From an uncultured Eubacteriales bacterium (lineage in GTDB: Bacteria; Bacillota; Clostridia; Lachnospirales; Lachnospiraceae), in the NCBI GenBank assembly GCA_900316115.1, contig ONBN01000026.1, forward strand, positions 1 through 50,383: 50,383 bases of DNA, in the 5' to 3' direction. This document shows, piece after piece, positions 9,859 through 23,290 of the stretch (positions are counted from its first letter, which is position 1; each line of letters begins with the position of its first letter). Position numbers and translations under genes: made by a program. Under the pieces are notes generated by a model. That model made no database searches, was not told the DNA's origin, and saw only the letters and a program-made list of their open reading frames with translations.

Positions 9859-10719
9859 GTGAAAAGCAAAAAAGAAGCAGCACTGGTGCTGGAAGGCGGC
9901 GGTACAAGAGGCGTATTTACCGCAGGTGTTCTGGATTACCTGATGGAAAAGAAGGTGAAATTCCCTTATGTGATCGGCGTTTCTGCAGGTGCCTGCAATG
10001 CTATAGATTATGTTTCGGAACAGATCGGCAGGACAAAGGACTGTACCATTATCGAAGACAAAAAGAAGCGTTTTATCGGTACAAAGGATGCTTTGAAAAA
10101 GGGCTATCTTTTTGATATGGATCGGCTTTTTGACGAGTATCCTAACAGGATGTTTCCTTTTGATTTTGATACTTACTTTGCTTCTGATATCCAGTGTGAG
10201 CTGGCTGTGACCAACTGTCTTACAGGGGAGGCAATGTATCTGTCCGAGAAGCAGGACAGGGACAGGCTTCTGACGATCTGCAGAGCTTCTTCCAGCATTC
10301 CGCTGGTAAGTCCTGTGGTGGATGTGGACGGTATTCCCTGTGTGGATGGAGGAGTGGCAGATTCTGTGCCTCTGATCCATTCCATGAAGCTGGGCCATCA
10401 GAAGAATGTGGTTGTACTTACAAGAAATAAGGGGTACCGTAAGGAAGCGCCCGGGAAGAGCAAATTTCTTTACACAGCTGCATTGAAGAAATATCCCAAT
10501 CTTTTAAATGCACTTCTGAACCGGTACAGGAATTACAACCGGGTGATGGAACTGATTGAGAAATGGGAAGAAGAAGGACATATCTTTGTGATCCGTCCGG
10601 AGGTGGGGCCTGTGTCAAGAACTGAGCAGAATGTAGAAAAGCTGACAGCGTTTTATGACCATGGGTACCAGCTGATGGAGCAGCGCCTGGAAGAAATGCA
10701 GGCTTATCTGGAAAAATAG
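9859..10719 (+). CDS. Patatin-like phospholipase
   Basis: A 286-residue cytosolic patatin of the bacterial YjjU-like group; no signal peptide. The oxyanion loop is LEGGGTRGVFTAGVLDYL (residues 11-28), the nucleophile is Ser42 in GVSAGA, and the dyad aspartate is Asp163 in DGGVADSVP. It is expected to hydrolyse acyl esters of phospholipids. The start is a GTG with GGGAGG 11 bp upstream. It follows citrate synthase closely and precedes yqeG by 58 bp, probably in one transcript. Confidence 0.9.
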   Translation: MKSKKEAALVLEGGGTRGVFTAGVLDYLMEKKVKFPYVIGVSAGACNAIDYVSEQIGRTKDCTIIEDKKKRFIGTKDALKKGYLFDMDRLFDEYPNRMFPFDFDTYFASDIQCELAVTNCLTGEAMYLSEKQDRDRLLTICRASSSIPLVSPVVDVDGIPCVDGGVADSVPLIHSMKLGHQKNVVVLTRNKGYRKEAPGKSKFLYTAALKKYPNLLNALLNRYRNYNRVMELIEKWEEEGHIFVIRPEVGPVSRTEQNVEKLTAFYDHGYQLMEQRLEEMQAYLEK

Positions 10720-14537: not shown

Positions 14538-15659
14538 TCAGGAGCGGAGCTGATAGGGGGTATCCCAAAGCAGCATTTTCTGTCCGATGTTCTTTTTTAA
14601 TGCATTCTGATATATCTCGTATCCCCAGCCTACATCAAAAACAGACATTCCGCAGGCAACAAATGTAATGATCTCATTATCGTCTTTTCGGCCTGGCTTT
14701 TGACCGGCAATGATCTGACCGATACTGTCAGAGTCCTGAAGGGAAGGAAGCCGATGGTCGTCGATCAGATGATAAATAGGCCCGCCGATCACACCTGCAT
14801 AATATTTGTCTTTATCACCAGAAGCGACAGCTTCTTCTACATAAGATTCATGTAATCCAATATGATCCAACACGATCCGGGTATTCAGCCAGAAATCAGT
14901 ATCAGGCATAATTGGGCCTGTTACAAGTACAGTTGTGCCAGGTTTGATCCAGTCCTTTTTGAAATTTACAGGTTTTAATCTGGAGGCTGCAATGGTTGTT
15001 ATATCAGACTGTGATAAAGTGTCCTGAAGATCTGTGGAAGCAGCTGCATCCAGATGGAAAGTTTCACAGATCCATTTTGCACAGCTTTCAGCTTTTTCTG
15101 TAAAAAGGTCAAAACAGATGACTTTTTTTATTTTGAGCATTTGCGATAAAATATGGCGCAGACAAGACTGGTTGATAGGACCGCAGCCGATCATGGAGAT
15201 TACTTCAGAATCTTTTCTTGCAAGATATTTTGAGGCAACCGCCGGAACTGCACCAGTACGGGCTGCGCTTAACAGATTCGCTGACATCAGGGCTAAAGGT
15301 TCGCCGGTATCTTTATTATTCAGCATAACTGTAAGGACAGAACGGGGCAGTCCTTTGGAGGGATTGGCTGCATTTGAGCCATACCATTTATTGCCACATA
15401 TATCAAAACGGCCTCCAAGATAAGCTGGCATAGCTACAAAACGTCTGTCCGGACCTGCTACAGGCATATTTGGAAATGGGGATTCTTTTGGAAAAACCAG
15501 TCCCATTCCGTGGCTGTTATGGTTACTTCCCCCCATCAGATAATCACCTTTTGCCAGAAGTTCAAAAACTTCAGAGCATACGTCTACACATCGGGGGGCA
15601 TCTAACACGCCAGCGTCAATAGTATCCTGTTCAGATAAATAAATGAATTCAGTGCTCAT
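14538..15659 (-). CDS. Ornithine cyclodeaminase/mu-crystallin family protein
   Basis: A 373-residue member of the OCD/mu-crystallin family, NAD(P)-binding enzymes that deaminate, dehydrogenate or reduce amino and imino acids. The substrate part has KWYGSN and LMSANLLSAARTGAVPAVAS; the Rossmann part starts MIGCGPINQSCLRHI near residue 167. The C-terminus has a ~60-residue extension beyond ornithine cyclodeaminase, so the substrate probably differs; related Clostridial proteins have been given other names such as amine-oxidation subunits. It is transcribed away from the glycerate kinase-enolase operon, and the shared region carries the twin operators also found at 20416. That makes it part of the same regulon. 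Its reaction there is unknown. Confidence 0.8.
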   Translation of the reverse strand: MSTEFIYLSEQDTIDAGVLDAPRCVDVCSEVFELLAKGDYLMGGSNHNSHGMGLVFPKESPFPNMPVAGPDRRFVAMPAYLGGRFDICGNKWYGSNAANPSKGLPRSVLTVMLNNKDTGEPLALMSANLLSAARTGAVPAVASKYLARKDSEVISMIGCGPINQSCLRHILSQMLKIKKVICFDLFTEKAESCAKWICETFHLDAAASTDLQDTLSQSDITTIAASRLKPVNFKKDWIKPGTTVLVTGPIMPDTDFWLNTRIVLDHIGLHESYVEEAVASGDKDKYYAGVIGGPIYHLIDDHRLPSLQDSDSIGQIIAGQKPGRKDDNEIITFVACGMSVFDVGWGYEIYQNALKKNIGQKMLLWDTPYQLRS

Positions 15660-15693: not shown

Positions 15694-15722
15694 AATATTC
15701 CATTTTGCAGCTGTCCCGTCAA
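15694..15722 (-). promoter_or_regulatory. Promoter of the OCD-family gene
   Basis: On the minus strand TTGACG (15722-15717), a 17-bp spacer and AATATT (15699-15694). The -10 is weak, and the twin operator lies 8 bp upstream of the -35, a layout fitting an activated promoter. Confidence 0.55.
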
Positions 15723-15729
15723 TAAAAAA

Positions 15730-15761
15730 TATCAAAATGATATAGAATCGATCAATCTGAT
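15730..15761. promoter_or_regulatory. Twin ATCA-N3-TGAT operator in the divergent promoter
   Basis: TATCA-AAA-TGATA (15730-15742) and ATCA-ATC-TGAT (15751-15761) start 20 bp apart. The first is the exact reverse complement of the palindrome at 20416-20428, where a second copy also sits 20 bp on. The outer edges lie 31 bp from the leftward -10 and 32 bp from the rightward -10. The likely binder is the Fis-type regulator at 18642-20390. Confidence 0.75.
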
Positions 15762-15769
15762 AAAAAATC

Positions 15770-15798
15770 TGGCTGGGAAGAGAAAATCCACTTATACT
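15770..15798 (+). promoter_or_regulatory. Promoter of the glycerate kinase-enolase operon
   Basis: TATACT (15793-15798) with a very poor -35 (TGGCTG, 15770-15775) at 17 bp. The second operator ends 32 bp before the -10, as at 20447/20478. A weak -35 with an adjacent upstream site suggests dependence on an activator. Confidence 0.5.
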
Positions 15799-15827
15799 CT
15801 GGAAAAAACAGAAAGGACAGTGAAGAA

Positions 15828-17255
15828 ATGGAAGCGAAAATAAAGAATAAAGACAGTATTCTTTGTGACGGTGATGTGGATTCAAAGCGTATAGTTCTGA
15901 ATATTGCAGAAAAAACACTTCAGAAGCTGGATGCATATGAACGTATTAAAAGTATTACAAAATATGAAAACAATATATTAACCATTGGAACCGAAAAGTG
16001 GGATTTAAGCAAAAAGAATCATGTATATCTGATCGGTGCAGGAAAAGCATGTAACCATATGGCAAGGGCCATTGATGAAATCCTGGGAGACAGACTTACA
16101 AAAGGAATTGCGATTGTAAAGATAAAGGAACCAAATGACAGGTTCCAAAATACGGAGGTTTATGTTGGAGGTCATCCTCTTCCAAATGAAGAAGGATATA
16201 AAGCATGTAAAAAGATTATTAAGCTGATTGATGAGGCAACAGACAAGGATCTTTTCATTGTTGTGATCAGCGGTGGGAGTTCCGCGTTGATGAGCTGTCC
16301 CATTGATGGGATCTCCCTTCAGGATGAAATTAACACTACAGATGTGATGCTGAAATCAGGGGCGAATATATACGAGATCAATTCCATACGAAGACATATT
16401 TCACAGTTAAATGGAGGAATGCTGGCGAAAAGGATCCGGGAAAAGGGAGCACAGCTGATCGGCTTTGGGATCAGTGACGCTGTAGGAAATCCCCCCACTA
16501 CAGACATAGGGATTCCTTATGCCGGTTATAAAGGAACGCCTATGGGACCGGATCAGACAACTCTGCAGATGGCAAGGGATGTAATAAAGCATTATGCAGT
16601 AGAAGACCGGCTTCCTAAAAATGTAGTGGATTATCTTATGAATTGTGGAGAAGAAGGAGAAACGCCAAAAGCATTTCCGGAAAATACATATTTTCTGCTG
16701 AATACACTTCCGGATTCCTGCATATATGCAAAAAAAATTGCAGAAGAAATGGGGATTCCGGCGATTATATTATCTTCATTTCTGGAAGGGGAAAGCAAAG
16801 ATGCAGGTAAGATCTTTGCATCTGTTGCAAAAGAAATCCAAAATTACGGGAATCCGGTAAAAGCTCCCTGTATTGTTTTAAGTTCCGGTGAAACGGTAAC
16901 TACCATCCTTGATAATAAGACAGTTTCAGGGCATGGAGGTCCCTCACAGGAACTTGCAACCGGATTTGCCATTGCTGCAAAAGGGCTTTCCGGCTGTGTG
17001 ATGTATTCTATGGATTCTGAGGGAACCGATGGTACAACTATGGTTGCGGGAGGTATCACGGATTCTGTGACAGGATGTCTGGCAGAGGAGAAAGGAATAG
17101 ACCTGTATAAAGCACTTCGCCAGCATTCATGCTTTGAGGCACTTGAACCGTTAAAAGCAACTGTGTTTACAGGAAATACTGGCACAAATCTGTGTGATCT
17201 GAACATTATGTATGTACCTGCAAAAACAGACAGGAAAAAGGAGGACAGAAGATGA
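15828..17255 (+). CDS. Glycerate 2-kinase (DUF4147/MOFRL family)
   Basis: A 475-residue kinase of the TtuD/GckA family, which phosphorylates glycerate at O2 to give 2-phosphoglycerate. The N-terminal DUF4147 domain has LIGAGKACNHMARAID and GGHPLPNEEG; VISGGSSALMSCP is the glycine-rich substrate loop. The MOFRL domain near 350-450 holds SSGETVTT, SGHGGPSQE and SEGTDGTTMVAGG, ending with TGTNLCDLNI. The next gene starts 4 bp inside its stop (ATGA), so the enolase-like protein is coupled and probably acts on its product. A hydroxy-acid other than glycerate is possible, because the enolase partner is unusual. GGACAGTGAAG precedes the ATG. Confidence 0.88.
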   Translation: MEAKIKNKDSILCDGDVDSKRIVLNIAEKTLQKLDAYERIKSITKYENNILTIGTEKWDLSKKNHVYLIGAGKACNHMARAIDEILGDRLTKGIAIVKIKEPNDRFQNTEVYVGGHPLPNEEGYKACKKIIKLIDEATDKDLFIVVISGGSSALMSCPIDGISLQDEINTTDVMLKSGANIYEINSIRRHISQLNGGMLAKRIREKGAQLIGFGISDAVGNPPTTDIGIPYAGYKGTPMGPDQTTLQMARDVIKHYAVEDRLPKNVVDYLMNCGEEGETPKAFPENTYFLLNTLPDSCIYAKKIAEEMGIPAIILSSFLEGESKDAGKIFASVAKEIQNYGNPVKAPCIVLSSGETVTTILDNKTVSGHGGPSQELATGFAIAAKGLSGCVMYSMDSEGTDGTTMVAGGITDSVTGCLAEEKGIDLYKALRQHSCFEALEPLKATVFTGNTGTNLCDLNIMYVPAKTDRKKEDRR

Positions 17256-18529
17256 GCGGTTTTCAGATAAAAGAAGTGAGGGCAAGGCAGATTCTGGATT
17301 GCAAATGCAGGCCAATGGTGGAAGTAGATATAGTAACTGAAAATGGAAGGATTGGAAGAGGCGCAGCTCCCACAGGAAACTCTGTAGGCATGTATGAATC
17401 ATATGTACTGAGAGATCAGGATCCTAAAGAATATTATGGAATGGGTGTAAGAAAGGCAGTAGCGAATGTAAAGGAGAAAATCGCACCTGCGCTGGTGGGA
17501 ATGGATGTAAGGGATCAGAGGAAGATTGATGAAACAATGATCTGTCTTGATGGCACAGATAATAAGTCCAATCTGGGAGGAAATGCGGTTTACAGTACAT
17601 CCATTGCAGCATATCGTGCAGCAGCAGCTTTGGCTGACAGGGAATTATATGATTACATAGCTGACGGGAATATAAAAACAGTGCCGATCCCTTCGTTTAA
17701 TGTAATGAATGGCGGCAGAAATTACGGGATTAACCAGGCGTTTAATGAATTCATCATTATGCCATATAAGGCCAGGGATATAGAAGAGGCTGTAGAGATC
17801 GGCGTGGAGGTATTCCAGAAGCTGGAAAGTGTGATTGAAAAGCATACAGGAAAACAGGCTATGGTAGGAAAATCTTATGGTTGGGTGGCACCATTTGAGG
17901 ATCCGGAAAAAGTTCTTGACCTGATTTCAGAAGCTGTTTCTTTATGTGGTTATCAGGATAAAGTTGCCTTTGCACTGGATTGTGCTATCAGTGATTTTTA
18001 TGATAAAAAAACAGGCTTATATTATTTAAACGGCAGACGGCTTACAAGCCAGGAATTGATCGCTTATGATAAAAAGCTGACAGAAAAGTATAATTTTGTA
18101 TTTATTGAAGACATGCTGGATGAGGATGACTGGGAAGGCTTTAAAAAAGCGCATGAACAGATAAGCAGAACACTGATCATAGGGGATGATTTCTGCGTCA
18201 GTAATCCTGCCAGGATCAGAAAAGCCCATGAAATGAATGCGATTGATGGTTTTATTCTGAAACCAAATCAGGTAGGAACCATTACAGAAGCACTGGATGC
18301 CCACAAATATGCCGTAGACAATCATATGATCAGTATAACTTCAGGAAGAAGCGGAGGAGTTGTAGGGGATGTAGTGATGGATCTTGCAGTAGGGCTGCAG
18401 ATCGGATTTATCAAGAATGGCTGTCCAAGATCTGGAGAACGTATTGATAAGCTTAATTTCCTCCTGCGGGTGAACAGCCTATATAAGGATTGCTCCCTGG
18501 CTGATATTTCCGGACTTATCCGTTTTTAA
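17252..18529 (+). CDS. Enolase-superfamily protein with altered active site
   Basis: A 425-residue enolase paralogue, alignable over its whole length. All three metal ligands remain (Asp in ALDCAISDF, Glu in FIEDMLDEDDW, Asp in IGDDFCVSN), as do the catalytic base Lys in LKPNQVGT and Lys in IKNG. Other key positions differ. The GDEGG loop is GKSYG, losing the Glu that assists loss of water. NGGxHA is NGGRNY, losing a loop His. SHRSGE is SGRSGG, losing the phosphate-side His. The start SRGNPTVE is KCRPMVE. It therefore probably keeps proton abstraction but not ordinary 2-phosphoglycerate dehydration. Coupling to a glycerate kinase suggests a phosphorylated hydroxy-acid substrate. A housekeeping enolase should exist elsewhere in the genome. 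Confidence 0.85.
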   Translation: MSGFQIKEVRARQILDCKCRPMVEVDIVTENGRIGRGAAPTGNSVGMYESYVLRDQDPKEYYGMGVRKAVANVKEKIAPALVGMDVRDQRKIDETMICLDGTDNKSNLGGNAVYSTSIAAYRAAAALADRELYDYIADGNIKTVPIPSFNVMNGGRNYGINQAFNEFIIMPYKARDIEEAVEIGVEVFQKLESVIEKHTGKQAMVGKSYGWVAPFEDPEKVLDLISEAVSLCGYQDKVAFALDCAISDFYDKKTGLYYLNGRRLTSQELIAYDKKLTEKYNFVFIEDMLDEDDWEGFKKAHEQISRTLIIGDDFCVSNPARIRKAHEMNAIDGFILKPNQVGTITEALDAHKYAVDNHMISITSGRSGGVVGDVVMDLAVGLQIGFIKNGCPRSGERIDKLNFLLRVNSLYKDCSLADISGLIRF

Positions 18530-18547
18530 GAAAGGAGAAGGTCAGTC

Positions 18548-18577
18548 TTGACAGTATCGTATTGCGGGTGCTATGGT
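18548..18577 (+). promoter_or_regulatory. Possible promoter of the regulator gene
   Basis: TTGACA (18548-18553) is followed 18 bp on by TATGGT (18572-18577). The -35 is perfect and the -10 weak; it may give low independent expression. No ATCA-N3-TGAT palindrome lies here. Confidence 0.35.
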
Positions 18578-18641
18578 AGGTCAATAACAGGCAAGATGTA
18601 TCATTAAGCAGATGTTGTGAACCGAAAAGAGGTATACGCAT

Positions 18642-20390
18642 ATGATCGAGAAAAAAGAAGCTATCGGAAAGAGCCGTTTGTACGGGATTCAGGATGTTGC
18701 GGTTGAAATAGCTGAGACAATTTCTATCATGCTCCAGGTTGAGGTTGAGATCATAGACCGAAATCATATGCTGGTGGCAGGAACGGGAAATTTCAGAAAG
18801 AAGATAAATATGTGTAATGAAGATGAGGGTCATGCATATCGGGATGTGCTTGAGCAGGGAGAAAAAATGGTGATCACGAACCCTTCCGCAGATTCCTATT
18901 GCAGAAGCTGTAAAAATAAAGAGAATTGTGGTATTCTTCTGGAAATCGGATATCCTATTATCTGCAACGATCATGTAGAAGGGGCAGTTGGCATTACCTG
19001 CTGGGAAGAAACCAGAAGAGCATTTTTTGCGGAAAATCTGGAAAGATCCCTCTTTTTTGTGGAGCATATGTGTGAACTTCTGGCAGAGAAAATCACAGAG
19101 CGTACAACAGTGCAGGCATCTCTTGCCACAAGTAAGATGTTTTACAGCCTGCTGGGACATGTAGATAAAGGACTTGTGATCCTGGATGAATGGGGAACCA
19201 TTGTTGAAGCGAATACAGAGGCGAAAGAAATTTTCAGAGAAATCAATCCTTTGATCGGGAAACAGACAAATGTGATTCTGACAGATGGGAATGTGGAGCA
19301 TGTAAATACTTACCGTGTAGTCATTGAAGGGCGTGTGTTTACGGTAATGGGAACGATGGAGAGCTTTGAAAATCAAAACAGCGATTATTCCAGAATCCTT
19401 ATTTTCCAGACACCGGTTCAGTATAGAAACAGATTGATGGCAACAGAAAACAAAAAAGCATATGTGGGTATTGATTCTATTCTTGGCAAAAGTGAATATG
19501 TATCAAAGCTGAAAAAGCAGCTGTTGATACAGGCAGAGAATGTAGTGCCGGTTTATTTAAGCGGTGAAAGCGGAACGGGCAAGAAGCTTGCGGCAGCAGC
19601 AATGTGGAAGGCCGGGCCAAGGAAGGACAGACCATTTTATTATCTGGATTGTACCACCTATAAGTCACAGGAATTAAGCGATCTTCTGTTTGGTGTGGAT
19701 AAAAAGGAAAGCAGTATTATTACAGCTTCCAGGAACCAGATGGGTTTGCTGGAAAAGCTTTCAGGAGGAATGATCCATATCGATGCAGTGGATGTTCTGG
19801 ATATGCCGTTTCAGGAGGCTTTATATCATGTGATCTGCGACCAGAAAATACAAAGACGTAATGCTATCACCTGGCAGCCGGTGGATGTACGTTTTGTTTT
19901 TTCGTCAAACCAAAATCTTCTGAAGCTGATGGAAGAGGGAAAATTCCAAAAGGATCTTTATTATTGTATCAATGCCGGTAAGATTAGTTTCCTTCCACTT
20001 CGGAAGCATCGGGAGGATATCCGTGAATATGTGGAGTATTTTATTAAGGAGTATTCAGAAAAATATCAGGTTTATATAAAAGAAGTAGCACCTGAAACCA
20101 TGGAATTGCTGGTAAATCACAGGTGGTTTGGAAATGTGGATGAGCTGAAAACGGTTATTGAATATATGGTCAATGCGCTGGGAGAGAACGGGATCATGGA
20201 CAATCATACCCTGCCGGAATCTTTTGGACTGAACAGTGAATACAGCGATGATGAGATCATTCCCATTGATGAGCTGGAGCGCAGGGAGATTGCCAAAGCT
20301 ATTGATTTCTATGGAGATACCAAGAACGGGAAAGAAAAGGCAGCAGAGGCACTGGGCATAGGAATTGCTACTTTATATCGCAAATTATAA
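18642..20390 (+). CDS. Fis-type regulator with degenerate sigma-54 AAA+ domain
   Basis: A 582-residue regulator with the layout of sigma-54 activators. Residues 1-165 are a GAF-like sensor with a cysteine cluster (YCRSCKNKENC, ~86-96); a PAS-like domain follows (~170-265), then an AAA+ domain (~280-520) and a Fis HTH at the very end (AAEALGIGIATLYRKL). Walker A is SGESGTGKK. The sigma-54 contact loop GAFTGA is absent (LLFGVDKKESSIITA), Walker B reads GGMIHIDAVD without the Glu, and both arginine-finger positions are changed (FQKDLYYCIN). It therefore probably cannot drive sigma-54 transcription and may act on sigma-A promoters, as TyrR does. It lies between the two operons it is likely to control. 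Confidence 0.85.
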   Translation: MIEKKEAIGKSRLYGIQDVAVEIAETISIMLQVEVEIIDRNHMLVAGTGNFRKKINMCNEDEGHAYRDVLEQGEKMVITNPSADSYCRSCKNKENCGILLEIGYPIICNDHVEGAVGITCWEETRRAFFAENLERSLFFVEHMCELLAEKITERTTVQASLATSKMFYSLLGHVDKGLVILDEWGTIVEANTEAKEIFREINPLIGKQTNVILTDGNVEHVNTYRVVIEGRVFTVMGTMESFENQNSDYSRILIFQTPVQYRNRLMATENKKAYVGIDSILGKSEYVSKLKKQLLIQAENVVPVYLSGESGTGKKLAAAAMWKAGPRKDRPFYYLDCTTYKSQELSDLLFGVDKKESSIITASRNQMGLLEKLSGGMIHIDAVDVLDMPFQEALYHVICDQKIQRRNAITWQPVDVRFVFSSNQNLLKLMEEGKFQKDLYYCINAGKISFLPLRKHREDIREYVEYFIKEYSEKYQVYIKEVAPETMELLVNHRWFGNVDELKTVIEYMVNALGENGIMDNHTLPESFGLNSEYSDDEIIPIDELERREIAKAIDFYGDTKNGKEKAAEALGIGIATLYRKL

Positions 20391-20415
20391 AGCATATGTA
20401 AGAAAACAGGTATCC

Positions 20416-20447
20416 TATCATTTTGATAAATGGTCAATCAAATTGAT
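20416..20447. promoter_or_regulatory. Twin ATCA-N3-TGAT operator before the amidohydrolase operon
   Basis: TATCA-TTT-TGATA (20416-20428) and ATCA-AAT-TGAT (20437-20447) start 20 bp apart, matching the pair at 15730-15761 in sequence and spacing. The right edge is 31 bp before the -10 box. A half-site (TTGATA) overlaps the -35. Confidence 0.75.
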
Positions 20448-20455
20448 ACTACAAG

Positions 20456-20483
20456 TTGATATGTGATTTTCCTGTTTTATAAT
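20456..20483 (+). promoter_or_regulatory. Sigma-A promoter of the amidohydrolase-YgeY operon
   Basis: TTGATA (20456-20461), a 16-bp spacer and TATAAT (20478-20483). It is a sigma-A, not a sigma-54, promoter and is preceded by the twin operator. Confidence 0.7.
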
Positions 20484-20515
20484 CAATATAAATTCATAAA
20501 GAAATTTTGGTAACG

Positions 20516-20551
20516 AAGGCGTTAAGTAAAAAGATACTTGGCGTCTTTTTT
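20516..20551 (+). promoter_or_regulatory. Leader hairpin with T run: possible attenuator
   Basis: AAGGCGTTAAGTA (20516-20528) pairs with TACTTGGCGTCTT (20535-20547), 13 bp with three G-T pairs and a 6-nt loop, running into six Ts. It lies between promoter and start codon, so it could terminate early. An overlapping repeat, AACG-AAGG-CGTT (20513-20524), could form instead and release it. I do not recognise a known riboswitch. Confidence 0.5.
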
Positions 20552-20587: not shown

Positions 20588-21979
20588 ATGTATACCATAA
20601 TACAGAATGCAGACTGGATCATTACAATGGATGAGAAACGTACCAGATGGAAACACAGTGATGTAGTGATCGAGGGAAAAGAAATAAAAGAAATCGGGAA
20701 AAATCTAGCTGGAAAATATCCGGATGCAAAAGTGATCGATGGGAAAGGCAAACTGGTATTACCGGGATTTGTAAATGTACATCATCATACCTGGCAGTCA
20801 CTGGTACGTAATATTAATGTGGCAAACGGATTAAAGCTGGAGCCATGGCTTAAGGTTGTTTATGAAATTTTCAAAGAAATCAATACAGATGTGGCAAGGG
20901 CTGGTGCATATGCAGGACTGGGCGAGTTGTTGCAGACCGGCTGCACTACATCAAATGATTTGTTTTATGCCCATCCGGTTGGCGTGGAAAAGCTTATTGA
21001 TGCGGAAATCGAAGCTGCTGCAGAAATGGGAATCCGTTTTCATCCAAATAGAGGAGTCCATTCCAAGGCAAGTAACATTGTGCCACCGGAACTGGTAGGC
21101 AGTACAGAGGTGGTTATGGCAGATGCAGAACGCCTGATCCGTAAATATCACGATACCAGCCGTTTTTCCATGTGCAGGGTGGGAATCGCACCTAATATGC
21201 CCCAATATGAAACACTGGAAATCCTGGAAGAAAGTAAAAAGCTGGCAGAAAAGTATGATGTGCTGATTCATGGACATCTGGCTGAAAGCGTGTATGAAAC
21301 AAAATATACCCTGGATACTTTTGGATGTACACCTGCCAGATGGTTTGAAAAGCATGGGCTTTTAGGAGACCGCTTTTATTATGCACATGTTGTACATCTG
21401 GAGGATGATGAGATTGAACTGATGAAGGAAACAAATACAGGCGTTGCTCATTGTCCCATTTCCAACATGTTTCTGAATTCAGGGGTATGCAGGATTCCGG
21501 ATCTTATGAAAGCAGGTGTAAGGGTAGGGCTTGGTGTGGACGGAGCAGCAAGCTCCAATTCTTCTAATATGCTTCAGGAGATACGAAGTGCTTACCTTGT
21601 GAACCGGCTGACCTGGGGAGACAATGCGGTATCAGCGGAAGATATTCTGTATCTTGCAACTGTGGGAGGAGCGCAGGTGCTGCACAGGGATGATATCGGA
21701 TACCTGGCACCCCAAATGGCAGCAGACATTACCATTATGGACTGGGATCAGCTTCAGTATGCAGGTGGGCAAAATGATCCGGTTGACTGCATTGTATTAA
21801 GTGGTGAAAGCAAACTGGTGGATAAGGTTTTTGTAAATGGTGAACTGGTTGTGGACGGTGGAAGGCTGACAAAGGTTGATGAACAGCAAAAGGCCAGATT
21901 TGTAAATGATGTAGGCAAGGCAATGCTGCGAAGGGCATCTACCCATCTGGAAGGATTAGAGAAAGACATAGAGGACTAG
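20588..21979 (+). CDS. Amidohydrolase, 8-oxoguanine deaminase/AtzB-like
   Basis: A 463-residue metal-dependent amidohydrolase of the deaminase branch (8-oxoguanine deaminase, guanine deaminase/SsnA, AtzB). LPGFVNVHHHTWQSLVRN near 57-75 gives the HxH metal site. HGHLAES near 228, AHVVHL near 267 and GLGVDGAASSNSSNMLQE near 315 give the remaining ligands and catalytic residues. Enzymes with this set remove an amino group from a purine- or triazine-like ring. The exact substrate cannot be read. Its strong AAAGGAGG site follows the leader hairpin. The M20 hydrolase starts 3 bp after its stop, so the two work together. Confidence 0.85.
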   Translation: MYTIIQNADWIITMDEKRTRWKHSDVVIEGKEIKEIGKNLAGKYPDAKVIDGKGKLVLPGFVNVHHHTWQSLVRNINVANGLKLEPWLKVVYEIFKEINTDVARAGAYAGLGELLQTGCTTSNDLFYAHPVGVEKLIDAEIEAAAEMGIRFHPNRGVHSKASNIVPPELVGSTEVVMADAERLIRKYHDTSRFSMCRVGIAPNMPQYETLEILEESKKLAEKYDVLIHGHLAESVYETKYTLDTFGCTPARWFEKHGLLGDRFYYAHVVHLEDDEIELMKETNTGVAHCPISNMFLNSGVCRIPDLMKAGVRVGLGVDGAASSNSSNMLQEIRSAYLVNRLTWGDNAVSAEDILYLATVGGAQVLHRDDIGYLAPQMAADITIMDWDQLQYAGGQNDPVDCIVLSGESKLVDKVFVNGELVVDGGRLTKVDEQQKARFVNDVGKAMLRRASTHLEGLEKDIED

Positions 21980-21982
21980 ATA

Positions 21983-23290
21983 ATGAAAGAATTAAAAGAA
22001 CGAATCAGAGAAATCGCAGAGAGCCTGCAGGATGAAATGCTTTCTTTTGCACAGAAAATGATCCAGTGTCCTTCGCTTTCCGGCGAGGAGGAAAGTGTGG
22101 CAAAGCTGTATTTACAGGAATTACAAAAGCTGGGCTATGATGAGGCTTTTCTGGACAAATATGGAAATGTGGTAGGAATCGTAAAGGGCACGGAAGATGG
22201 TCCTTCCATTATGTATAATGGTCATCTGGATCATGTGGATATCGGAGATCCGGATGAATGGAAAGGATATGAGCCATATGGGGGAAAGATTGATGAATCC
22301 ATGATCCTGAAGGAGGATCGAAGCGGTGAAGAAAGAACCCAGGTGATACATGGCAGAGCGGCTTCGGATACAAAAAGCGGGATGGCATGCCAGGTATACA
22401 GTGGCGCAGTACTTGCCAGGCTGAAAAAAGAAGGTTATAGATTTAAAGGAAATTATATTTATTCAGGAGTTGTGCTGGAGGAACCGGCAGAGCAGATCGG
22501 AATGCGGGGACTTATAGAAGATACCTTTACAAAGAAGAATATCCCGGTGGACGGAGTTGTATCCTGTGAAGCTACAGGCCTTCAGCTGTATCTGGGACAC
22601 AGAGGAAGGGTAGAATTATCTGTAGATGTTGAGGGAGTGAACAGCCATGCCAGCGCACCCTGGCTTGGGGTGAATGCGGTAACGGAAGCGTCCAGGCTGA
22701 TCCTTGAAGTAGAACATGCATATGCAGATGCAAAAGAAGATCAAAATCTTGGAAAATCTACCATTGCACTGACAAATATTACCTGCTCTCCAGGGTCTAT
22801 GTGTATTGTTCCGGATCGCTGCCATCTGACCTTTGACCGCAGATTTATTCCGGGGGAAACGGCTAAAGACTGTGTAAAAGAAATGGAAGAACTGATCAGT
22901 AAACTGCATGAAAAGGATGAGAATTTCCATGCAAAGGCAGGTATAGGGGCAACACCGAGAACCACCTATACAGGGATTATAAAAACAGTAGAAAACATTA
23001 AAGAGGCATGGAAGATTTCAACAGAGCATCCCTTTGTTAAGGCAGCTGCCAAAGGACTGGAAGCATACGGGGAACCGGTAAGTTATGGTTACTGGGATTT
23101 TGGAACAGATTTGGCAATGATATGCGGTGGACATGGAATCGCAGGGATCGGGTATTCCCCTATGCAGGAACTGTACTGCCACAGGCCTGTGGATATGTGC
23201 AGGACTGATTTTATGAAAAGAGCTGTGACTGGAAATATAGCCATTTTCATGGAACTTTGCAAGCTGGATAAAAATGATTTTAAACTGTAA
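21983..23290 (+). CDS. M20-family metallohydrolase, YgeY-like
   Basis: A 435-residue M20 dizinc amidase/peptidase. Metal ligands appear in order: GHLDHVD near 80, SDTKSG near 132, EEPAE near 164, CEATG near 194 and the C-terminal CHRPVD. TFDRRFIPGETAKD is the segment I associate with YgeY, the hydrolase found in selenium-linked purine-degradation clusters of gut bacteria. Other members of that cluster (ygeX, ygeW, ygfK) are absent here. It is predicted to hydrolyse an amide, possibly formed after the amidohydrolase step. Two hairpins follow its stop. Confidence 0.85.
   Translation: MKELKERIREIAESLQDEMLSFAQKMIQCPSLSGEEESVAKLYLQELQKLGYDEAFLDKYGNVVGIVKGTEDGPSIMYNGHLDHVDIGDPDEWKGYEPYGGKIDESMILKEDRSGEERTQVIHGRAASDTKSGMACQVYSGAVLARLKKEGYRFKGNYIYSGVVLEEPAEQIGMRGLIEDTFTKKNIPVDGVVSCEATGLQLYLGHRGRVELSVDVEGVNSHASAPWLGVNAVTEASRLILEVEHAYADAKEDQNLGKSTIALTNITCSPGSMCIVPDRCHLTFDRRFIPGETAKDCVKEMEELISKLHEKDENFHAKAGIGATPRTTYTGIIKTVENIKEAWKISTEHPFVKAAAKGLEAYGEPVSYGYWDFGTDLAMICGGHGIAGIGYSPMQELYCHRPVDMCRTDFMKRAVTGNIAIFMELCKLDKNDFKL

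Follow-up and report, generated by a model that had tools for sequence, protein, structure and literature searches.

Twin palindromes beside sigma-70-type promoters in a Lachnospiraceae locus look like a former sigma-54 enhancer pair

In a 50,383-nucleotide stretch of DNA from an uncultured Eubacteriales bacterium (contig ONBN01000026.1, hereafter the window), paired ATCA-N3-TGAT palindromes with 20-bp spacing occur in two places, with a regulator gene between them. This arrangement raises the question of which protein reads the motif and how it might act on the promoters next to it. The operators and genes concerned are:

15731..15761, no strand: twin operator 1, ATCAAAATGAT and ATCAATCTGAT, 20 bp apart, common to the divergent OCD and kinase promoters
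20417..20447, no strand: twin operator 2, ATCATTTTGAT and ATCAAATTGAT, 20 bp apart, for the amidohydrolase promoter
14538..15659, minus strand: ornithine cyclodeaminase/mu-crystallin family gene (OCD), above the cut-off of NCBIfam NF004848 'tyramine oxidase subunit B'
15828..17255, plus strand: glycerate 2-kinase-like gene (DUF4147 and MOFRL; NCBIfam glycerate 2-kinase models below cut-off)
17252..18529, plus strand: enolase-family gene (TIGR01060 above cut-off)
18642..20390, plus strand: regulator gene (N-terminal SpoVT_C match, sigma-54-activator AAA+ domain without GAFTGA, Fis-type HTH)
20588..21979, plus strand: amidohydrolase gene (best NCBIfam model 8-oxoguanine deaminase, below its cut-off)
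21983..23290, plus strand: YgeY-like M20 hydrolase gene (NF009555, 303.8 bits versus a cut-off of 321)

A preliminary description of this DNA had noted that TATCAAAATGATA (15730-15742) is the exact reverse complement of TATCATTTTGATA (20416-20428), and that each site has a second copy starting exactly 20 bp further along (15751 and 20437). Both statements proved accurate, the second copies being ATCAATCTGAT (15751-15761) and ATCAAATTGAT (20437-20447), with the 20 bp counted from 15731 and 20417. The reverse-complement identity is partly built in, since a palindromic site of this form leaves only three bases free; the weight is carried by the paired arrangement and its rarity. The single motif ATCAN3TGAT occurred 10 times in the window versus 2.18 expected, a count reached by none of 100 shuffles. 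The exact 20-bp twin was found at two places in the 2.77 Mb genome of the organism (reversed-pattern control, 0) and, in a search of 299 genomes of the family, in this genome only, being absent from the 298 others. A search for pairs with 19-bp spacing and up to two mismatches yielded two more, with two mismatches each, in one xanthine-dehydrogenase/SsnA/YgeY locus. Together, the two genome-wide searches, one for the exact 20-bp twin and one for 19-bp spacing with ≤2 mismatches, returned four pairs, all beside two paralogous regulators. A motif equally common at unrelated promoters, which the preliminary description had named as one outcome that would speak against a regulon, is thus not what these searches found.

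The second regulator and the two further operators lie on another contig (C47) and were absent from the preliminary description. This regulator is a paralogue of the window regulator, to which it is 43% identical and with which it shares the recognition helix; both are encoded by long open frames and end in the same 16 HTH residues. One of the operators precedes the first gene of the paralogue's operon and the other precedes the ABC gene after the operon. Within the locus, SsnA (NF005540) and YgeY (NF009555) scored above cut-off and the Xdh-type subunits below their cut-offs.

Next to the operators of the window we predicted the following promoters:

15694..15722, minus strand: predicted OCD promoter, -35 TTGACG (15722-15717), spacer 17, -10 AATATT (15699-15694)
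15770..15798, plus strand: predicted kinase-operon promoter, -35 TGGCTG (15770-15775), spacer 17, -10 TATACT (15793-15798)
20456..20483, plus strand: predicted amidohydrolase-operon promoter, -35 TTGATA (20456-20461), spacer 16, -10 TATAAT (20478-20483)

The distances from operator edge to -10 box, previously given as 31, 32 and 31, came to 31 (OCD), 31 (kinase) and 30 (amidohydrolase) on recount, in agreement apart from a counting convention of about one base. Two promoters that had not been described before, those of the xdh operon and the ABC gene, share this geometry: at all five predicted promoters the operator lies wholly upstream of the -35 box, 8 bp from it and 30–31 bp from the -10 box. 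Among 98 offsets, the best sigma-70 score fell at 30 or 31 in all five cases, scored with hand-set weights based on consensus frequencies, and the summed score was reached by none of 500 shuffles, which preserved single-base content only. Taken one by one, the promoters are weak evidence. A consensus scan of 9.6 kb gave 28 promoter-like sites versus 24.3 in shuffles; the kinase promoter, whose -35 box is poor, was not among the sites listed. As such sites are no commoner than in shuffles, the promoter calls rest on the common spacing. The amidohydrolase promoter matches the consensus at 11 of 12 positions, so that an activator would hardly be needed there, which counts against a reading as activation. 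The leaders were inspected as well. Terminator-like hairpins occur in three of the five (amidohydrolase, xdh and ABC) and in neither the kinase nor the OCD leader; the one between the amidohydrolase promoter and its gene (20515..20551, plus strand, with a T-tract) is a fold prediction that the terminator scan did not list. We considered a leader attenuator, and in two cases the hairpin may instead end the regulator transcript. A leader riboswitch was dismissed, as Rfam at gathering scores matched only tmRNA and tRNA in the window; at the same scores there was no match in the loci L005, L040 and L044.

The window regulator matched Pfam PF00158 (1.5e-31) and PF02954 (6.4e-05), both over gathering score, and thus has the AAA+ sigma-54 interaction domain and a Fis-type HTH. 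Both regulators of the genome lack the GAFTGA loop (window, LFGVDKKESSIITASRN; paralogue, LFGATGQDKTGMGTDYQ). The window copy retains Walker A (GESGTGK) and reads IDAV for LDEI and YYCIN for YYRLN; the paralogue retains LDEI and shows YYSIC at the arginine-finger stretch. We take these positions to be the Walker B Asp-Glu and the arginine finger. Judged by its sequence, the window regulator is a degenerate sigma-54 activator and the twin site looks like a former enhancer, two points that go beyond the preliminary description.

The sigma-54 gene itself was searched for with TIGR02395 (rpoN), which gave no match in the genome of the organism; at 91.5% completeness in 107 contigs, rpoN could sit in a gap. 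Across the genus, rpoN scored above cut-off in three of 64 genomes, many of them incomplete, our genome being among the 61 without; weak matches below cut-off occurred in nine of the 64. An EBP-type AAA+ domain (E ≤ 1e-15) was present in 13 of the 64: four have a GAFTGA-like loop, three of them with rpoN, and nine have lost GAFTGA, none with rpoN. A GAFTGA-like loop in G025 (GAFTGT) and a GAFTGA regulator in G493, both in genomes in which rpoN was not found, count against our main reading, as does the restriction of the window operators to a single species. Homologues of the window regulator were found neither in the 298 other genomes of the family (E ≤ 1e-90) nor in 60 genomes of relatives (E ≤ 1e-60). 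A scan of genome contigs with the regulator alone gave no relative, and one with a two-row alignment gave a single one, B. glucerasea, which is also the one further species with the xdh operator. There the paralogue is reduced to pieces matching residues 1-173, 188-221 and 278-360 (its loop was read apart from the genus AAA+ alignment) and the operator persists.

In the class, 16 of 390 genomes besides our own had a homologue at E ≤ 1e-80, and in 11 of the 16 the helix was GIG(I/V)ATLYRK or NIGVATLYRK. A GAFTGA-type loop (GAFTGA, GAFSGA, GSFSGA or GTFTGA) was present in all 16 homologues and rpoN above cut-off in 15 of their genomes. The regulators with a near-identical helix retain this loop and are accompanied by TTATCA-N3-TGATAA pairs at variable distance to sigma-54 promoters. 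Of 16 pairs tested, 10 had a sigma-54 consensus in the 260 bp downstream, at 47–180 bp (one promoter being common to two of the ten), compared with 30–31 bp to the -10 box at the five promoters described here. In the 500 bp that follow the stop codon of the regulator, a pair with ≤2 mismatches was found for eight of the 11 same-helix homologues and none of the five with other helices; three loci (L024, L025 and L030) had no site there and carried pairs elsewhere in the locus. Anywhere in the locus, a pair with ≤1 mismatch and 17–22 bp spacing occurred in 9/11 versus 1/5, and a loose pair (14–26 bp, ≤2 mismatches) in 11/11 versus 3/5 (L036-L038). SsnA, YgeY, Xdh or AmdH homologues were encoded in 10 of the 11 same-helix loci and in none of the other five. 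The window regulator and its paralogue grouped at 100/100 with one member of the genus and all 11 homologues that share the helix, in a tree that took in six of 12 genus domains without GAFTGA and two of four with it, and that carries a long-branch warning, the placement of the G749 and C11 copies being unsure. The preliminary description had proposed that the sites are probably bound by the regulator whose gene lies between them, and that the palindromes should be conserved at orthologous operons. The former gains from the pair near the regulator following the helix (8/11 versus 0/5), which makes binding likely; the latter stands for the loci of homologous regulators, where the comparison was made.

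We thus favour, with a probability of roughly 0.7, the reading that a DioR-like sigma-54 enhancer pair has turned into a promoter-proximal sigma-70 activator site. In the mechanism that we infer, from binding and activation to the effector and the order of events, the twin palindromes would be binding sites for two dimers of the Fis-type HTH of the regulator at 18642-20390 and of the C47 paralogue. Sigma-54 would have been lost in the lineage of the organism. Both regulators have lost GAFTGA, and in the window copy the glutamate of Walker B and the arginine-finger position have gone as well. Relative to the predicted sigma-70-type promoters, the operators now centre on about -49 and -68/-69, with 8 bp between them and the -35 box, which makes direct contact with the sigma-70 RNA polymerase most likely. 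Such contact would replace ATP-driven remodelling from afar, leading to activation with sensing by the N-terminal domain.

The same regulator might instead repress, or both repress and activate, with an effector relieving repression. The amidohydrolase promoter is strong by consensus, and TyrR is known to act in both directions. Caulobacter NtrC, without GAFTGA, is reported to repress some genes with sigma-70-type promoters (PMC10274813). This reading is nevertheless rather unlikely, as the sites lie wholly upstream of the -35 box at all five predicted promoters, the kinase promoter has a poor -35 box (TGGCTG) and the relatives are members of a sigma-54 activator family. Left-over sites of decaying regulators would explain the persistence of the operator in B. 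glucerasea next to a paralogue in pieces; the two long open frames with their identical HTH end and the tight geometry at five promoters render this quite improbable for our genome. An unrelated regulator, its sites lying near EBP-like genes incidentally, is conceivable inasmuch as ATCAN3TGAT is a simple palindrome, binding by the EBP-like proteins is deduced from sequence comparison and loose pairs exist in three of five loci whose regulators carry other helices. Against it, all four pairs from the two genome-wide searches adjoin the paralogous regulators and the motif near the regulator goes with the helix, so that we give it very little credence. Least of all do we expect that sigma-54 control persists, with rpoN missed in a 91.5% complete assembly and the pairs still serving as enhancers. 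A minimal GG-N10-GC core at the OCD promoter would fit and may be a relic or chance; no such core was found on the sense strand between pair and gene at the kinase, amidohydrolase, ABC or xdh promoters, GAFTGA is gone from both regulators along with part of the ATPase residues, and only three of 64 genus genomes have rpoN above cut-off.

Proteins with an EBP fold that regulate sigma-70-type promoters are not new in themselves. TyrR, DhaR, HupR and Rhodobacter capsulatus NtrC live in bacteria that retain sigma-54; our organism seems to be without sigma-54, and next to its new promoters the ancestral enhancer pair can still be recognised. According to PMC3162934 and PMC10274813, these four are GAFTGA-less EBPs at sigma-70 promoters, a setting that the window regulator shares, its promoters being predicted. 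The former source also describes putative EBPs with altered GAFTGA in Fusobacterium nucleatum and Jannaschia, whose genomes lack sigma-54, and proposes a shift to sigma-70. Our case resembles theirs, and the four operators and five predicted promoters go beyond that account as excerpted. DioR itself represents a sigma-54 EBP group of Clostridiales, with targets including dpaL-pyrC-argE, ygeW-ygfK-ssnA-ygeY, pbuX and yqeB (Nie et al. 2019, PMC6615313). The same-helix homologues of the class are DioR-like in adjoining SsnA/YgeY/Xdh/AmdH homologues (10/11) and in having tandem sites upstream of -24/-12 promoters. The paralogue locus has ssnA/ygeY-type neighbours as well; those of the window, an amidohydrolase and a YgeY-like gene, are below cut-offs. 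Unlike DioR, the window regulator lacks GAFTGA, rpoN was not found in its genome and its sites lie 8 bp from the -35 box. The likeness rests on gene neighbourhood and tandem sites, the tree containing no named DioR sequence. GAFTGA-less EBPs acting with sigma-70 are thus already known, and the new part is the conversion of a small regulon on the cis side.

Sigma-54 requires a dedicated ATPase and distant enhancers, and its loss should therefore strand every gene that it controlled. The locus suggests how a gene-control circuit may outlive the loss of its partner. In a broader version, for which we see the arguments as evenly balanced, a whole small regulon would have been kept after the loss of sigma-54 because sigma-70 promoters were built at one set distance to the former enhancer pairs, the activator meanwhile giving up the motor functions of its AAA+ domain. 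On this view EBPs would have become ordinary contact activators more than once in the genus, on several occasions. The two paralogues, of which one has a dead motor, may have the four operators in common, with cross-regulation. The window locus, its paralogue and the sigma-54-bearing relatives represent both ends of the transition with the same apparent protein–DNA recognition code. Moving one short piece of DNA could therefore serve to test how an enhancer becomes a contact-activator site. For the organism, the locus predicts the switching-on of purine-type catabolic genes in a Blautia-like gut bacterium.

The twin palindromes reported in the preliminary description are correct at base level: paired ATCAN3TGAT sites with 20 bp spacing lie on either side of the kinase operon and regulator gene. 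Two related pairs occur in a second locus of the same genome (L005, contig C47, an xdh/ssnA/ygeY cluster), and the four operators are as follows.

Window 15731-15761: twin operator 1, divergent OCD/kinase intergenic region; ATCAN3TGAT twice, 20 bp apart
Window 20417-20447: twin operator 2, between the regulator and amidohydrolase genes; ATCAN3TGAT twice, 20 bp apart
L005 10050-10079: xdh operator, before the xdh genes; 19-bp pair, up to two mismatches
L005 1760-1789: ABC operator, before the ABC gene; 19-bp pair, up to two mismatches

Genome-wide searches covered the exact 20-bp pair and the 19-bp pair with up to two mismatches. The former was found in two places in 2,774,557 bases (reversed-pattern control, 0) and, in the family search, in 1 of 299 genomes, namely the source genome of the window. 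The latter was found in exactly two places, both flanking the L005 gene cluster (control, 0). Six further single ATCAN3TGAT sites in the window (13054, 26241, 29630, 31442, 31913 and 38858) alone outnumber the 2.2 expected for all such sites there.

Counting the two L005 operators, five promoters were predicted in all, and at each of them the -35 box lies 8 bases from the operator edge. The distance to the -10 box is 30 bases for the amidohydrolase and 31 for the kinase, OCD, xdh and ABC promoters. A simple sigma-70 score evaluated at 98 offsets peaked at 30 or 31 in every case, and the summed score was reached by none of 500 shuffled sets. Since generic promoter scanning showed no excess across this stretch (28 sites vs 24.3 in shuffles), the weight rests on the common spacing. 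If the -10 box begins at -12, the palindromes are centred at about -49 and -68/-69. Activation from these positions would suit the poor kinase -35 box (TGGCTG), but the near-consensus amidohydrolase promoter disfavours such a role. Three of the five promoters have a leader with a terminator-like hairpin, possibly an attenuator (window 20515-20551; L005 ~10004-9957 and 1637-1600, minus strand), with fold energies of -17.5, -30.3 and -24.6 kcal/mol in the best scanned windows; the xdh leader hairpin is also present in B. glucerasea.

The window regulator (18642..20390, plus strand) comprises 582 residues and combines an N-terminal SpoVT_C match with an AAA+ domain of the sigma-54-activator type and a Fis-type HTH. 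Among 61 genomes (E ≤ 1e-60), one further copy was found, the paralogue on contig C47 of the same genome, with 43% identity and an identical stretch corresponding to the final 16 residues of the window protein. Because one helix is common to both, both regulators should, by sequence, bind all four operators. L005 encodes YgeY and SsnA proteins above a cut-off, xanthine-dehydrogenase-type subunits below cut-offs and, downstream, an ABC-transporter ATPase. The ATPase frame (L005:823-1581) has only 252 aa, and its best-profile match ends at position 223 of 510; the sequence beyond presumably resembles an insertion-element ATPase gene. B. glucerasea (NZ_JAAITU010000015.1) carries the paralogous locus; protein identity is 88-97% for most pieces and 74% for a piece of 34 residues. 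Its cluster (L040:4165-10848) is decaying, with regulator, ssnA and large xdh subunit broken or partly missing, yet the xdh operator pair is still present.

A class-wide search with the paralogue (E ≤ 1e-80) matched 17 of 391 genomes, source genome included. The GAFTGA-type loop, lost from the window regulator and its paralogue, is kept in all 16 other regulators, and rpoN scored above cut-off in 15 of these genomes (exception G493); the TIGR02395 profile found no rpoN in the source genome. Eleven homologues share the helix GIG(I/V)ATLYRK or NIGVATLYRK, while five have other helices. Within 500 bp past the regulator stop, a pair (up to two mismatches, 17-22 bp) was found in 8/11 same-helix vs 0/5 other-helix loci, and so were exact single sites (8/11 vs 0/5; shuffle mean ≤ 0.05). 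When entire loci (up to 18 kb) were considered, pairs with up to one mismatch (17-22 bp) gave 9/11 vs 1/5; allowing two mismatches and 14-26 bp separates the groups poorly, as it gave 11/11 vs 3/5. SsnA, YgeY, Xdh or AmdH homologues accompany 10/11 same-helix regulators vs 0/5. In the eleven same-helix loci, 10 of 16 pairs are followed after 47 to 180 bp by a TGG(C/T)-type -24/-12 consensus (two on one promoter), the remaining six by a GG-N10-GC core only (30-220 bp searched). Eight of the eleven have an extra exact palindrome 68-71 bp ahead of an exact site of the pair; these loci (L024-L029, L031 and L034) are of the sigma-54 type, and in several the extra copy sits at the regulator's 3' end or just past it. 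The window genome lacks a palindrome at this distance.

Within the genus, rpoN exceeded the cut-off in 3 of 64 genomes (2/41 and 1/23), nine others giving weak partial matches below it and many genomes being incomplete. Thirteen genomes contain enhancer-binding protein (EBP)-type AAA+ domains (E ≤ 1e-15; 16 domains). Four keep a GAFTGA-like loop, and three of these have rpoN. In the fourth, G025 (89% complete), the loop reads GAFTGT and no rpoN scored above cut-off. The other nine have solely loops without GAFTGA (12 domains, one truncated) and rpoN above cut-off in none. As species of one genus, the 64 genomes are not independent. In a tree of 24 rows, six labelled lost, no fewer than three switches between the kept and lost states are needed, with long-branch warnings. 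The source genome's third EBP-type regulator (L045:539-2329, contig C11), likewise without GAFTGA, groups with L038 (support 99/98); because it falls in another subfamily, parallel losses are likely. G749, of the same genus, has a related regulator (L044:8230-9963) in which GAFTGA is missing and both Walker motifs, A and B, are altered. This regulator lies upstream of a diaminopropionate ammonia-lyase gene, which is preceded by a looser pair (10076-10105; CTCATAATGAT, CTTATTTTGAT, 19 bp).

We propose that two regulator dimers would occupy the tandem palindromes on the same helix face and contact sigma-70 RNA polymerase at the adjoining -35 region, the N-terminal domain probably sensing a purine-related compound. 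ATP hydrolysis by the window regulator is improbable, as its Walker B glutamate and arginine-finger residue are lost; the paralogue keeps LDEI and has lost the arginine finger. Glycerate 2-kinase-like and enolase-family genes share one operon (15828-18529), so a C3 product may be recovered as phosphoenolpyruvate.

Published work describes EBPs without GAFTGA at sigma-70 promoters (PMC3162934, PMC10274813), a proposed sigma-70 switch in the sigma-54-less Fusobacterium and Jannaschia (PMC3162934), and DioR, the purine-type EBP of Clostridia (PMC6615313, PMC11448449). Among the matches listed for Blautia with sigma-54 or EBPs, no paper named Blautia, and for sigma-54 loss with EBPs no title or abstract opening pointed to such a case. 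By this comparison, the protein side is a further case of something known. What the literature searched did not show is the cis side, with its four operators and with five promoters rebuilt at a single distance. Set against its homologues, the motif is a variable-distance sigma-54 enhancer elsewhere and a fixed promoter element in the window genome.
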